A stretch of DNA of 6,486 nucleotides from NCBI GenBank assembly GCA_003243865.1, contig QHBQ01000357.1, positions 1-6,486 on the forward strand. Direction: 5' to 3'. Made by a program: the position numbers and the translations under genes. Within the stretch, counting starts at the first letter, position 1. Every line of letters begins with the position of its first letter. This stretch comes from Candidatus Chloroheliales bacterium (GTDB taxonomy: Bacteria > Chloroflexota > Chloroflexia > QHBQ01). The notes under the pieces are model-generated. The model was given only the letters and a program-made list of their open reading frames with translations, was not told the DNA's origin and did not search any database. Of this stretch, positions 1,420 through 6,486 are shown one piece after another.

Positions 1420-2751
1420 ATGAACTCAAAACTCAGGGCGGACGCAATCCGCCCCTACGAAAACTCAAAACTTCGCATCCTAATTGCAACGGATGTGTTC
1501 CCCCCTAAGTGCGGCGGCAGCGGGTGGAGCAGCTACTATCTGGCCTGCGCGTTGCGCGAGCGCGGCCATCACGTGGTCATCGCCCGCCCGCGCATCGGCG
1601 CAAAGCGGGATCGGCTGACCGACTATGACGGCTTCATCGTGCATGAGTATGCTCACCCTGACCTGCCGCTCAAGCTGCCGATCCTGACCAACTATCAGCG
1701 CAACGAGCGGCTCTACGCCGCTTTCCGCCGCTTTCTGCTCGACCTGATCAAGCGGGAGCGGATTGACATTGTACATGGGCAGAATGGCCTCAGCATCCCG
1801 CCAGCGGTAATGGCGGCGGAGGCGGCGGGCATCGCCTCAGTTAGCACCATCCGCGACTGGTGGGCGCTCTGCTACTTTGGCACGTTGCGGCACGGTGACG
1901 TCGCCTGTCACGGCTGCACCGTCCGCGACCTGGCGCGTGGGCTGCTACATATCGCGGGAGCTAAAGGCGTGCTGGGCTGGCCGCTGATACCTTATATGCG
2001 GGCCAACCTGCGACTCAAGCGCCGCTGGCTGGCTCGCAGCAGCCGCATCATCGCGGTCAGCAACTATGCGGCGATGCGCCTGCGCCCCTACGTTCCCGCC
2101 GACAAAGTGCGTGTCGTGCCGAACATTATAGACTTTGGCGCGCTATCCGCCATACTCCAAAACCAGGATACAACTCAAAATACTTGGCGGACGCAATCCG
2201 CCCTTACGAAAACTCAAAACTCCTATTGGGTGTTCGCGGGCAAGCTGGAACCGAACAAGGGCGTGGAGATGCTTGTTCCTGCCCTGGCGACGGCCAAGAC
2301 TACCTGGCCGACGCTGGTGCTGGGTGACGGCAAGCTGCGCGAGTCGCTGGCGCTGGCGGCGGAAGCGGCGGGCGTGGGGCTAAACATCACCCCTTGGCTG
2401 CCCAACGACGAGGCGCTGCGGCAGATGGCAAAAGCTAGCGGGCTGCTCTTCCCCTCGGCCTGGCCGGAGCCGCTCAGTCGCGTGCTGCTCGAGGCCTCAG
2501 CCCTCGGCCTGCCGATTGTGGCGATGAACACTGGCGGCACGCCCGACATCATCCGCGACGGTGAGACCAGCCTGCTCGCTACCGACCTGTCCACCTTCGC
2601 CGCCGCCATCGCCCGCCTCGAAGCCGACCCCGCTCTGTGTACCCGTCTCGGCGTTGCTGCTCGTGAACACGCCCGTGCCAATTTCAGCAAGGAGGTGGTC
2701 GTACCGCAGGTGGAGGGAGTGTACGCTGAGGCATTGGCAAAGAAGCCATGA
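1420..2751 (+). CDS. GT4-family glycosyltransferase carrying two in-frame repeat insertions
   Basis: This 443-residue GT-B enzyme probably transfers a sugar in polysaccharide assembly. The N-terminal domain begins in earnest at LRILIATDVFPP (18-29), with GGSG at 32-35 and VHGQNG at 118-123. RDWWALC (145-151) followed by CHGC (163-166) matches a cysteine-bearing stretch I recall from some GT4 enzymes, perhaps metal-binding. The donor domain has FAGKLEPNKG (272-281), GDGK (302-305), a full E-x7-E (E350, E358) and TGGTPDIIRDGE (371-382). Residues 2-18 and 251-268 are encoded by two copies of a 50-bp repeat. The second lies after VPNIID (233-238), in the linker between the two domains, where extra residues are easily tolerated. 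ATG at 1420 is the only sensible start found and has no clear ribosome site. The native start may have been replaced when the first repeat arrived. The frame is intact, so the enzyme is plausibly active. Confidence 0.9.
   Translation: MNSKLRADAIRPYENSKLRILIATDVFPPKCGGSGWSSYYLACALRERGHHVVIARPRIGAKRDRLTDYDGFIVHEYAHPDLPLKLPILTNYQRNERLYAAFRRFLLDLIKRERIDIVHGQNGLSIPPAVMAAEAAGIASVSTIRDWWALCYFGTLRHGDVACHGCTVRDLARGLLHIAGAKGVLGWPLIPYMRANLRLKRRWLARSSRIIAVSNYAAMRLRPYVPADKVRVVPNIIDFGALSAILQNQDTTQNTWRTQSALTKTQNSYWVFAGKLEPNKGVEMLVPALATAKTTWPTLVLGDGKLRESLALAAEAAGVGLNITPWLPNDEALRQMAKASGLLFPSAWPEPLSRVLLEASALGLPIVAMNTGGTPDIIRDGETSLLATDLSTFAAAIARLEADPALCTRLGVAAREHARANFSKEVVVPQVEGVYAEALAKKP
1423..1472 (+). repeat. 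50-bp hairpin repeat, copy 1, encoding an N-terminal extension
   Basis: A perfect 7-bp stem, GGGCGGA (1436-1442) and TCCGCCC (1448-1454), encloses the loop CGCAA and is followed by CTACG. On each side are about two heptamers of the AAAACTC type (AACTCAAAACT at both ends). The copy begins with the second codon of the glycosyltransferase gene and is read with its first base in codon position 1, giving residues 2-18. It agrees with the copy at 2172-2221 at 45 of 50 positions by hand alignment. None of its three + frames has a stop, while all three - frames do. Confidence 0.85.
2172..2221 (+). repeat. 50-bp hairpin repeat, copy 2, inside the inter-domain linker
   Basis: This has the same length and orientation as copy 1 and differs at five positions. 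The stem is shortened to 6 bp, GGCGGA (2186-2191) with TCCGCC (2197-2202), around the same CGCAA loop, followed by CTTACG and terminal AAAACTC heptamers. Its first base falls in codon position 3, so it is read in a different frame from copy 1 and yields a Thr/Gln/Asn-rich peptide (residues 251-268). A 50-bp insertion alone would shift the frame, so the insertion must include extra flanking bases or have been corrected afterwards. Confidence 0.85.
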
Positions 2752-2803
2752 TTATGCAACCTATCAGCGAGCCAGACGTTATACCATCAGCACAATAAAG
2801 TTC

Positions 2804-2810
2804 AAGGAGA
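2804..2810 (+). promoter_or_regulatory. Shine-Dalgarno site that sets the start of the secreted-protein gene
   Basis: AAGGAGA lies 8 bases before ATG 2819 and is the best ribosome site in the window. It decides the start: the frame is open much further back, into the preceding gene, but only the ATG after this site gives a proper signal peptide. The leader between the previous stop and this site (2752-2803) shows no convincing promoter hexamers. The strong site suggests this product may be made in larger amount than its neighbours. Confidence 0.85.
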
Positions 2811-2818
2811 GTATAGCA

Positions 2819-4492
2819 ATGAGGAAGCTGAGATATGCGCTGCTGGTAGCGGTAGTGTTCTCGCTGCTGCTTGGCAGCTACGTTGGCGCCTCAGTGCGTG
2901 GGCAGAGCGATGAGCTTTACTTCCCGCAGACTGGTCATGCAATCAGCGGCATATTCTTGAATCACTGGCAGACACACGGCGGGCTGATGCAGTTCGGCTA
3001 TCCGCTCAGTGATCAAATGGGGGCAGCTTCGGATCTCGATGGCAAATACTATCCCACTCAGTATTTTGAACGCGCCGTATTCGAGTACCATGTGGAGAAC
3101 CAGCCGCCCTACGATGTGCTGCTTACCCTGCTCGGCAGCCAACGCTATAAAGAGAAGTACCCCCTCGGTGCGCCCAACCAGCAACCCTCGACTGACCATC
3201 CCTACCTCTTTGCTGTAACCGGCAAGACGCTTGGTGGCAAGTTCATCGCCTATTGGGAGCAGCATGGTGGTCTGATGCAGTTCGGCTACCCGCTCAGCAA
3301 TGAGTTTCGGGAAGTCTCAGAGCTTGACGGCAAGAGCTACAGCGTGCAATACTTCGAGCGGGCGGTGTTCGAATATCATCCAGAGAACCAGCCGCCATAC
3401 GATGTGCTGCTAAGTCAGATTGGCAGGCTTCATTATGAGCAAAAGCAGAAGTCTGCACCCCCTCCGCTACCCCTCTCGCAGCAGATTGAGTATAACATTT
3501 ACCCACCTCATGACATTGTAGGCAGCGGCGATTACATCTTCTGGACAACTGAAGATGGAATTGTTCTGCATGGCTACCGCATCAGCGCACAAAAAGAGTT
3601 TACCAGCACCACCGACGCCCAGCTATTCTCGCTTGCCACCAACGGCAAGGTTGTATTTGGTGTGACTGAAAGTGATAGTAACCCGCCAATACCCACTCCG
3701 GTGCCAACTGAGCAAGCTTACCAGCTTGCCCCACTGCCAACCAGCAATACTAGCCCCTTCACCAGCACGATCGTCAGCTACGACCCGGTTACCGGTGATA
3801 AGCAAACGTTGCTGGTATTTTCCAATGTAGTAATTGGCGATCTGGTCGTTGATGCTGGCACGCTTTACTACTATAAGGGCGACAACACCATCTACGCCTA
3901 CAATCTGACTAGCGGTCAGCAGCAGCAAGTGGCTATTACTCAAGGGCAGATGTCAAGTCGGAACGGCGGGGACGGCCTAGTAGCCAAAGATGGCTACCTG
4001 CTTTGGAGCCAATATGACAGCGACCACCAATCCAGCCTGCACCTGTTCAAGGTAGGCAGGGGTGGGCAGGATACAGTGCTGGCGAAAAGCGGCACTTCAT
4101 ACTTCAGCTATAGCCTGTCTGGCAATAACGTAGTCTGGTCGCTGACGGAGCAGAATGCCTACAGCCTGGATAGCGGGGTACATCTCTACCAAATCAGCAC
4201 GGGTACGACCAGGCTGCTCACCAGCGATTTCGGGTTGAGCCCCCTAATTGAGGGTAACAAAGTAGTATGGGTCAAAGAGGAAGCGATCCCAGGCTGTACG
4301 TATAGCTATGTTTGCACCAACTACTCAATCATTGCTTACGACCTGAGTACTGGCGATAGCAGACTGCTGGTTGCGCCCGACAGCTACGCAAAGGGGGCGG
4401 CGCTAATTGTCAGCCCAAATACGCTGGTTTACGTAAAGGAGGCTGGCTATAAGCTAGACGGTGCGATACTCTACACGGTTCCCCTGAATTAG
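2819..4492 (+). CDS. Secreted or surface protein: signal peptide, two 80-residue modules, probable beta-propeller
   Basis: This 557-residue protein begins with a typical signal peptide: basic MRKLR, a hydrophobic core at 6-20, and a likely cut after about residue 25-30. Two modules follow at residues 34-113 and 130-209, identical at 48 of 80 positions by hand count. Each holds HGGLMQFGYPLS, then DGK, QYFERAVFEYH and ENQPPYDVLL. The pattern of GYP, DG and a later F/Y-rich strand recalls LGFP-type cell-wall repeats, but this is resemblance only. After a proline stretch (214-219) comes a C-terminal half (about 225-557) with repeating strand patterns such as YDPVTGDKQTLL (321-332), YNLTSGQQQQVA (361-372) and YDLSTGDSRLLV (507-518), as in TolB-like beta-propellers. 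C493 and C499 could form a disulfide. Base composition looks less GC-rich than in the flanking glycosyltransferases. A role in binding or displaying the glycan is inferred from position alone. Confidence 0.85.
   Translation: MRKLRYALLVAVVFSLLLGSYVGASVRGQSDELYFPQTGHAISGIFLNHWQTHGGLMQFGYPLSDQMGAASDLDGKYYPTQYFERAVFEYHVENQPPYDVLLTLLGSQRYKEKYPLGAPNQQPSTDHPYLFAVTGKTLGGKFIAYWEQHGGLMQFGYPLSNEFREVSELDGKSYSVQYFERAVFEYHPENQPPYDVLLSQIGRLHYEQKQKSAPPPLPLSQQIEYNIYPPHDIVGSGDYIFWTTEDGIVLHGYRISAQKEFTSTTDAQLFSLATNGKVVFGVTESDSNPPIPTPVPTEQAYQLAPLPTSNTSPFTSTIVSYDPVTGDKQTLLVFSNVVIGDLVVDAGTLYYYKGDNTIYAYNLTSGQQQQVAITQGQMSSRNGGDGLVAKDGYLLWSQYDSDHQSSLHLFKVGRGGQDTVLAKSGTSYFSYSLSGNNVVWSLTEQNAYSLDSGVHLYQISTGTTRLLTSDFGLSPLIEGNKVVWVKEEAIPGCTYSYVCTNYSIIAYDLSTGDSRLLVAPDSYAKGAALIVSPNTLVYVKEAGYKLDGAILYTVPLN
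2918..3445 (+). repeat. Tandem duplicated protein module (288-bp period)
   Basis: The units are 2918-3157 and 3206-3445, with a 48-base linker and a period of exactly 96 codons. Conservation is uneven: the HGGLMQFGYPLS block and the QYFERAVFEYH to ENQPPYDVLL block are nearly unchanged, while the first 12 residues and the stretch after PLS vary. Synonymous differences are scattered through the conserved blocks, so the duplication is old and the protein sequence has been held by selection. It is a domain repeat, not a mobile one. Confidence 0.85.
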
Positions 4493-4516
4493 CTTCCCAG
4501 AACCTATACGCTGCGA

Positions 4517-5797: not shown

Positions 5798-5902
5798 GGC
5801 GAGATTCTCCCCCCAACCCCCGCTGGGGGCTTAGGTTAGTTGCTGCTTCAGCTTGGCACAGGGCGAGAATTCTCCTCCAACCCCCGCTGGGGCTTGGATT
5901 AG
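5798..5902 (+). repeat. Duplicated C-rich hairpin element downstream of the third glycosyltransferase gene
   Basis: Two copies, 5798-5839 and 5862-5902, share GGCGAGA(A)TTCTC, a C-run, AACCCCCGCTGGGG and CTTxGxTTAG. Copy 1 folds as CCCCC (5817-5821) with GGGGG (5825-5829) around GCT. Copy 2 folds as CCAA-C-CCCC (5877-5885) with GGGG-C-TTGG (5889-5897), a 4+4-bp stem with one C-C mismatch. The first begins 12 bases after the gene's stop. The hairpins could slow or end transcription, but no T-tract follows, so a terminator role is uncertain. They look like an interspersed genomic repeat. The remainder of this gap, which is 204 bases to the next start, is the heptamer array. Confidence 0.65.
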
Positions 5903-5918
5903 CTTTTCGCAGCTTCAT

Positions 5919-5989
5919 CATTCACCATTCACCATTCACCATTCACCATTTACCATTTACTATTTACTATTTACCATTCACCATTCACC
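5919..5989 (+). repeat. Heptamer array (CATTCAC/CATTTAC/TATTTAC, ten units) running into a start codon
   Basis: The ten units are four CATTCAC (5919-5946), two CATTTAC (5947-5960), two TATTTAC (5961-5974) and two CATTCAC (5975-5988), followed by C and then ATG. The start codon of the next gene therefore continues the repeat phase (C-ATG). The variants occur in blocks, as expected if units spread by slippage or unequal exchange. The array occupies the place where a ribosome site would be, and none is visible. The + strand has no stop in any frame through the array; the - strand meets TGA in every frame. It resembles the heptameric short tandem repeats known from cyanobacteria. Confidence 0.9.
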
Positions 5990-6486
5990 ATGATACAAGC
6001 CATCCTGCTTTTTCCCCTGATTCTATATCTCCCCGGCCTGGTTGCCTATCGGGTGTTCTGGCATGGGCGGCGCTGGCTGTGGCGCGGTTCGCCCGCCGAG
6101 GCTGTCTTCGTCCAATTCCTAATCGGCGCGCTCTATGCGGGCATGGTCGGGTTGATGCTGGCCCAGCTTGGCCGCTTCTCACTGCTCACCCTGCTGGCCG
6201 CAACGCTGCTGCCTTCCGCCCTCGTCATTGTCCTACGCCGCGATTGTTTCGCCCTACCATCATTCCGTAACCCAACCACCAACCCTGGGCAGTATGGCGT
6301 GATAAATCACACCCCTACGGAGGTAGAGCCATCATCCCAAACTAGCGCACCGAGCCCCACATTCAAAATTCAAAATTCAAAATTCAAAATTCCTATCGAA
6401 GGGGTGGCTGTCGCCGCGCTGCTGCTGCTGGCTGCGGTCCTGTTCGCCCGCCCTGCCGAGACGATCCGCGGCGCAACCGATGCGGG
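5990..6486 (+). CDS. Polytopic membrane protein, N-terminal part (possible GT-C type transferase); runs off the window
   Basis: An open frame of 165 codons starts at ATG 5990 and has no stop before the window ends. Hydrophobic segments lie at about residues 3-20, 38-60, 64-82 and 137-153, with a basic stretch (HGRRWLWR, 25-32) after the first and RR after the third. The long hydrophilic loop (84-136) holds a hairpin repeat (residues 103-110) and a heptamer array (about 124-134). The last residues, ARPAETIRGATDA, recall large Chloroflexota membrane proteins often labelled as family 39 or ArnT-like glycosyltransferases, where an acidic residue in the first outer loop matters. This is recollection and the diagnostic part lies outside the window. 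In a glycan locus such a protein could transfer a lipid-linked sugar. An upstream TAG at 5900-5902 in the same frame, with no ATG between, supports this start. Confidence 0.75.
   Translation, partial: MIQAILLFPLILYLPGLVAYRVFWHGRRWLWRGSPAEAVFVQFLIGALYAGMVGLMLAQLGRFSLLTLLAATLLPSALVIVLRRDCFALPSFRNPTTNPGQYGVINHTPTEVEPSSQTSAPSPTFKIQNSKFKIPIEGVAVAALLLLAAVLFARPAETIRGATDA
6296..6319 (+). repeat. Hairpin repeat ending CCCCTACG inside the membrane-protein gene
   Basis: GGCGTGAT (6296-6303) and ATCACACC (6306-6313) pair at 7 of 8 positions around AA, and CCTACG follows. The arrangement of a GC-rich hairpin followed by CCTACG is the same as in the 50-bp element at 1423 and 2172, although the stem sequence differs. 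It is read in frame as residues 103-110 in the loop between the third and fourth membrane segments. It may be a second member of one repeat superfamily. Confidence 0.5.
6361..6392 (+). repeat. Heptamer array ATTCAAA (4.6 units) inside the membrane-protein gene
   Basis: Four exact ATTCAAA units (6361-6388) plus ATTC lie in frame and encode FKIQNSKFKI in the loop before the fourth membrane segment. The unit differs by one base from ACTCAAA, the heptamer that flanks the 50-bp hairpin elements. Seven is not a multiple of three, so gain or loss of one unit would shift the reading frame of everything downstream. All three + frames through the array are free of stops. Confidence 0.9.

Follow-up and report, generated by a model that had tools for sequence, protein, structure and literature searches.

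The window (the whole stretch of 6,486 nucleotides analysed here, from a contig of Candidatus Chloroheliales bacterium) contains a GT4 glycosyltransferase gene that holds two copies of a 50-bp repeat, and a membrane-protein ORF with repeats of its own that runs off the end of the window (Table 1). The two copies in the glycosyltransferase gene, at 1423–1472 and 2172–2221, share 45 of their 50 positions; the first starts at codon position 1 and the second at codon position 3. A sequence-only reading of this DNA had made the same claim, which both the alignment and the ORF at 1420–2751 bear out, along with its further statement that nearly identical DNA is translated in two frames: both segments are encoded by the repeat within one intact ORF. 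Its term "50-bp hairpin repeat" holds for the repeat but not for a plain hairpin, since the unit is a hairpin within a heptamer array. The hairpin is confined to the centre of each copy, with stems of 7 bp in copy 1 and 6 bp in copy 2 and a loop of 5 nt, and the arms consist of AACTCAA heptamer units. In single-strand folding, copy 1 reaches -9.0 kcal/mol (z -4.8, 0 of 200 shuffles fold as well) and copy 2 reaches -7.1 kcal/mol (z -3.8, 2 of 200). On the minus strand, positions 1436–1458 of copy 1 read GTAG followed by a 7-bp palindrome (the GTAG corresponds to CTAC at 1455–1458), and copy 2 has GTAA there through one change. The 50-bp unit is a composite, in which a 25-nt GTAG-tagged, REP-like hairpin interrupts an array of AACTCAA heptamers. 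None of its three sense frames contains a stop, so it is readable in whatever frame a site dictates, while all three antisense frames contain stops. Freedom from stops in three frames is not rare for this length (13% of mononucleotide shuffles and 24% of random genomic 50-mers).

Table 1 Genes and repeat features of the window, in window coordinates.
Feature	Position	Strand	Remarks
GT4 glycosyltransferase gene, host of both 50-bp copies	1420..2751	+	443 aa; Glycos_transf_1 and Glyco_transf_4 domains
Copy 1, left heptamer arm AACTCAAAACTCA	1423..1435	+	Read as NSKL
Copy 1, hairpin, 25 nt	1436..1460	+	Stems 1436–1442 and 1448–1454
Copy 1, right heptamer arm AAACTCAAAACT	1461..1472	+	
Copy 2, left heptamer arm, diverged, AACTCAAAATACT	2172..2184	+	
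Copy 2, hairpin, 25 nt	2185..2209	+	Other frame than copy 1, within TTQNTWRTQSALTKTQNS
Copy 2, right heptamer arm AAACTCAAAACT	2210..2221	+	
Membrane-protein ORF running off the window	5990..6484	+	In-frame repeats; G001 homologue 68%
Hairpin-like repeat ending CCCCTACG in the 5990 ORF	6296..6319	+	Left stem GGCGTGAT against ATCACACC
In-frame heptamer array (ATTCAAA)4.6 in the 5990 ORF	6361..6392	+	

The host enzyme looks intact around both copies. No ATG, GTG or TTG lies in frame between the ATG at 1420 and the GTG at 1495, and this GTG supplies the valine of the conserved motif DVFPP; therefore, the first strand can be retained only with a start upstream of copy 1. A single scan of genome contigs with alignment A2 returned 21 loci, the closest of which (L001, 80%) lies in a Chloroflexi MAG of 5.2 Mb, hereafter G001, the only member of its family and order in the genome collection. 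Over 428 codons compared between the window gene and the L001 orthologue, dN is 0.121 and dS is 0.667, and the resulting dN/dS of about 0.18 indicates that the gene is under purifying selection. The intact frame asserted earlier is thus in keeping with both the missing alternative start and the excess of dS over dN. The database row of the identical protein gives three contigs. An AlphaFold2 model built from 120 sequences has a mean pLDDT of 92.5, and its best Foldseek match is 2jjm, a GT4 enzyme. The lowest confidence falls on the two repeat-encoded segments, with ten-residue blocks at 55 (residues 1–10), 60 (251–260) and 73 (261–270); the last three residues average 69, and all remaining blocks are at least 83. 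These positions agree with the earlier assignment of copy 1 to the N-terminus and of copy 2 to the linker between the two GT-B domains. Downstream, at 2752–4516 of the window, a secreted-looking ORF (about 2820–4492) stands between two glycosyltransferase genes; it is absent from L001 (11280–11300), where the next glycosyltransferase almost directly adjoins.

The same two sites were followed in relatives. L001, which matches P0004 in length and sequence region, is the sole close homologue seen as DNA and the one orthologue with which the window linker site was compared at that level; P0002, P0003, P0005 and P0006 were compared as proteins. At the N-terminal site, L001 has a plain array without hairpin, (AACTCAA)4.6, of 32 nt (10004–10035), against 50 nt in the window. 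The gain of 18 nt equals the 25-nt hairpin minus one 7-nt unit, and the frame is therefore preserved. At the linker site, L001 again lacks a hairpin and carries (ACTCAGC)4.4 over 31 nt (10733–10763), an array whose homology with ACTCAAA is argued from position alone. Whether GT4 homologues lack the two segments, a question raised by the sequence-only reading, has a divided answer. P0007–P0011 have no N-terminal extension, but the close relative P0002 has the same peptide there, and the N-terminal heptamer peptide is found throughout P0001–P0005. The linker is short in four of the five proteins P0007–P0011, while P0010 has an unrelated insert. None of these five more distant homologues shares both peptides, as they have neither the N-terminal segment nor such repeats. 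Their absence there, together with the low pLDDT of the segments, backs the earlier suggestion that repeats are tolerated as new protein segments.

In the close relatives, the linker has been refilled by different repeats, which goes beyond what the earlier reading saw. Its length and sequence vary in each of them, from 22 to 87 residues. P0002, which carries the copy-1 peptide without the copy-2 peptide, has QGEQRFAPT-type peptides in its linker, as do P0003 and P0005, and P0003 adds three GGPPPAP units; the linker of P0004 contains STQHSALSTQH and that of P0006 contains NPPLQGGRG. When a 1.495-Mb sample of G001 is translated in all six frames, 6-mers from the QGEQRFAPT, GGPPPAP and STQHSALSTQH kinds of peptide are found up to 176, 50 and 87 times, respectively, and QGEQRFAPT is the direct translation of the commonest hairpin in the sample. 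The 6-mers of the P0006 linker have at most 2 matches each. As a control, 1 to 9 of the 323–339 6-mers of each enzyme core occur at least 5 times, with a maximum of 13. The linker peptides thus appear to be repeat-encoded in four of the five close homologues (P0002–P0005), and the sequences mark the interdomain linker as a repeat hotspot. The phylogenetic tree leaves the branching of P0001–P0003 unresolved.

The exact core of the window hairpin occurs 27 times in G001 and a further 17 times with one mismatch (44 in total; 0 for the reversed control), and it is absent from the 40 other genomes searched. Hairpins sharing its chassis number 1195 in G001 (6 for the reversed control). They are present in 54 of the 61 genomes of the kin set (G001 and 60 kin), where G001 has by far the highest count and many of the low counts do not exceed those of their controls. 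Coding calls were made with a home-made hexamer model instead of a gene caller, on the 1.495-Mb sample, which is non-random and leans to contigs with earlier matches (the unselected part is 191 kb). The rule scored window copy 1 as non-coding, owing to its non-coding left flank. Among 419 hairpins in the sample, 384 were non-coding, 17 were in-frame coding (in 12 ORFs) and 18 were edge cases; coding hairpins are depleted (17 of 401, versus 2332 of 3934 random classified positions), and in the unselected 191 kb one of 40 classified hairpins was coding. CTAC lies on the coding strand in 16 of the 17 in-frame coding hairpins (p 0.0003). All five spacings between tandem coding hairpins are multiples of 3, versus 31 of 96 elsewhere, although these spacings are few and not independent. 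A general placement of coding hairpins within heptamers was rejected, as heptamer flanks were found for 1 of 17 coding and 17 of 384 non-coding hairpins. Perfect heptamer arrays number 136 in the sample, while periods of 4–6, 8–11, 13 and 15 give 0 to 6 arrays, a period of 12 gives 16, and 14, a multiple of 7, gives 86. By the same calls, 16 of the 136 are coding, 9 N-terminal, 101 non-coding and 10 edge cases. Many AACTCAA arrays start and finish with AACT, and their commonest length is 32–34 nt. At L026, L040, L041, L045 and other G001 loci, many intergenic core copies are flanked by GTGCAGTTCA-like and TGAACTGCAC-like ends, resembling a small inverted-repeat element.

The full composite is much rarer. 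A pattern search of the whole G001 genome (up to 3 mismatches) hit 37 places, mostly plain arrays, and its reversed pattern is not a valid null because a reversed heptamer array still matches. Full composites are present at L195 (46/50), L196 (49/50), L197 (50/50, identical to window copy 1), L199 (45/50) and L202 (44/50), and L200 is a partial composite with two hairpins. Among 37 distinct core copies of the 44 in G001, the matches to the 50-mer are 50, 49, 45 and 44, with the next at 33 or below, and this gap from 44 to 33 makes the composite a discrete class. The five G001 composites are all in the sense orientation relative to the frame read. Together with the two window copies, they use all three sense frames (4/2/1): window copy 1, L195, L197 and L199 are read in frame A (the NSKLRADAIRPYENSKL type), window copy 2 and L196 in frame C, and L202 in frame B. 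An automatic rule called 3 of the 5 genic, and L195 and L199 were called coding by eye. Against core copies without arms, the automatic count is distinctive (3/5 versus 0/33 genic, p 0.0012), but under the same rule composites are not supported as being genic more often than plain AACTCAA arrays (3/5 versus 11/36, Fisher p 0.32).

At three places, plain arrays of 32 nt and composites of 50 nt occupy matching positions, each time with a difference of 18 nt that keeps the frame. In addition to the glycosyltransferase N-terminal site described above, a CCA-adding enzyme (PolyA_pol head domain) has the composite on contig C413 and a plain 32-nt array on contig C22. The overlap of these contigs is identical in sequence at both ends, and both alleles lie at contig ends; the sequences suggest that the contigs are alternative assembly paths of co-existing strains. 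The third place is the L195 protein, which has repeated modules: the composite module runs 50 nt to CGAAG, and two array modules, one of which is degenerate, run 32 nt to CGAAG. The recurrence of the same 32-to-50 change at every place speaks for a ready-made block being exchanged, more than for hairpins inserted one by one; the same pattern might also be favoured by selection on frame.

Other genes carry in-frame repeats of these kinds. In MnmG of G001, query positions 580–653 hold a heptamer block and three units of the QGEQRFAPT type, in a region for which the aligned PDB structure 3cp2 has no residues. Of 14 MnmG homologues aligned over this loop, P0121 has one unit and the block, P0122 has other inserts that are not abundant in G001, P0123 is truncated, and the remaining 11 have no abundant 6-mer there. 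By sequence comparison, MnmG shows the same repeat turnover as the glycosyltransferase. ArgS of G001 has 44 residues at its hairpins, versus 13 in 2zue, and the best PDB match of MobA aligns before and after its hairpins with a gap there, the second stretch being weak. In the loop where the membrane-protein ORF of the window has its two repeats, the G001 homologue carries an ACTCAAA array and another hairpin. A TTCACCA array of 11 units (5914–5991) abuts the ATG of that ORF, and its G001 homologue also has an upstream array of this kind; another repeat, GGCGAGATTCTCCCCCCAACCCCCGCTGGGG, is present twice at 5798–5892 (84% identity between the copies), with similar sequence upstream of the homologous G001 gene. 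In L181 (11973–13256, minus strand), DJ-1/PfpI and 8-oxoguanine glycosylase domains are joined in a single ORF, separated by hairpin and heptamer peptide; this is perhaps a gene fusion via repeat DNA, or a missed stop.

Repeats at permissive sites in this lineage differ between relatives, keep the frame and favour one strand, and the host enzymes look intact. We consider it likely that these repeats are selfish, that permissive sites tolerate them and that frame and strand act as a filter, with the arrays coming first and the composite later. Dispersed arrays of the form (AACTCAA)nAACT would first have occupied permissive sites, namely the position after the start codon and the GT-B interdomain linker. 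A hairpin-bearing version would then have replaced them, which at the N-terminal site would mean adding 25 nt and losing one unit of 7 nt. Selection would purge wrong-strand, frame-breaking and fold-breaking copies, so that survivors would be found in termini, linkers and loops. The precedence of arrays over composites is presumed, the order of P0001–P0003 being unresolved in the tree, and the segments themselves are presumably neutral passengers. The composite might spread by short-homology exchange between arrays, a step that we put forward tentatively, at somewhat below even chances.

Separate insertion offers a different route, in which a Y1/HUH-type transposase that recognises the GTAG hairpin inserts hairpins into arrays and slippage by one unit then restores the frame. 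The GTAG tag and palindrome resemble those of REPs (PMC3733652, as far as the available text goes), Y1_Tnp scores above the cut-off in 31 of the 61 kin-set genomes, and in G060 chassis hairpins overlap one of the genes concerned. On the other hand, a search of G001, which has the most hairpins, found 0 Y1 transposases (PF01797), leaving Y1-driven transposition unsupported there, albeit in a MAG that may be incomplete; G034, with 179 hairpins, has none either. Moreover, an identical junction and 32-to-50 change at three places would require three coincidences or strong selection, and we regard this route as rather unlikely. A benefit to the enzyme, with a longer linker and N-terminus being useful and selected for, might be read from the persistence of the segments in a gene under purifying selection and from the N-terminal heptamer peptide shared by P0001–P0005. 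The divergence of the linker in each close relative and the low model confidence at both segments speak against such a benefit, which we consider improbable.

Derivation of one copy from the other by duplication within the glycosyltransferase gene would explain why two copies 45/50 alike lie in one gene, but the composite is also present in other G001 genes, once in a form identical to copy 1, and P0002 has the first peptide without the second, making duplication highly improbable. As for an assembly artefact or a decaying gene, the DNA is of metagenomic origin, repeats mis-assemble easily, and the alleles of the CCA-adding enzyme lie at contig ends; yet the identical protein is listed for three contigs, the copy-1 peptide recurs in P0002, and the low dN/dS and confident fold point to a working gene, so that this explanation has hardly any probability left. 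Beyond the tolerated selfish repeats that we favour, the composite could conceivably be mobile, fixed at its ends and compatible with coding, and spread by taking over plain arrays already present in permissive loops of housekeeping enzymes, a stronger claim that we hold to be doubtful. If it were true, the stop-free composite would fit any phase, so carrier lineages would own a standing mechanism that remakes linkers between sister species.

Small dispersed repeats of Nostoc, reportedly described by Elhai et al. in 2008, are hairpins of 21–27 nt that are often embedded in tandem heptamers. The 25-nt window hairpin with its AACTCAA arms resembles this description, although the hosts of those repeats are cyanobacteria. 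The comparisons that follow refer to the accessible portions of the papers cited. One such repeat, SDR5, has been reported in HIP1 (PMC4390886). GTAG-tagged REPs are palindromes of 20–40 nt with a terminal GTAG, present in many copies with several loop types per genome and known from Chloroflexi (Di Nocera et al. 2013, PMC3733652). Some are intragenic, for which the authors propose neutral insertion in flexible linkers, and recB of two Xanthomonas species has different REPs at about the same site (PMC3733652). The window hairpin is similar in having a terminal GTAG next to a short palindrome and in being dispersed in high copy in G001, mainly outside genes. It differs in its heptamer arms, of which that portion makes no mention, and in being part of a unit read in three frames, as well as from RAYT-mobilised REPs in that no RAYT/Y1 gene was found in the G001 MAG.

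Rickettsia palindromic elements lie in frame in unrelated, still functional proteins, are about 150 bp long and encode a conserved peptide (PMC10969869, PMC3733652). The in-frame repeats of the glycosyltransferase, MnmG, the CCA-adding enzyme and others recall them, whereas the window unit is 50 bp long and yields three peptides by frame, as set by the site. Enterobacterial RU-1/RU-1f is a single small mobile repeat found fused with ORFs in either of two frames (Delihas 2007, PMC2759123). Its units are MITE-like and of 103–168 bp, mostly join different small or hypothetical genes, and include no case of two in one enzyme in the portion available (PMC2759123). GGGAATC-type heptamer repeats of Xanthomonas and Nostoc are dispersed, with a four-unit bias and some intragenic copies (PMC4692102), but they are G-rich quadruplex repeats, mainly intergenic, and their available description includes no hairpin-bearing version (PMC4692102). 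There are thus precedents for GTAG REPs within genes, for in-frame Rickettsia elements and for the fusion of one repeat in two frames (PMC3733652, PMC10969869, PMC2759123). No hairpin-in-heptamer unit inside coding sequence appeared in the titles and opening lines of abstracts in the literature searched, which largely excludes subscription papers.

At the level of DNA, the locus shows repeats turning over within live enzymes of close relatives, and plain-array counterparts at the same places are available for comparison; it also provides a testable explanation for how a single short repeat can enter genes in any frame. In this lineage, protein stretches like QGEQRFAPT or NSKLKTQNSKL should be taken as repeat-encoded and not as conserved motifs. 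Since other repeats occupy the same two sites in close relatives, the lineage appears to keep remaking the spare segments of its enzymes from repetitive DNA.
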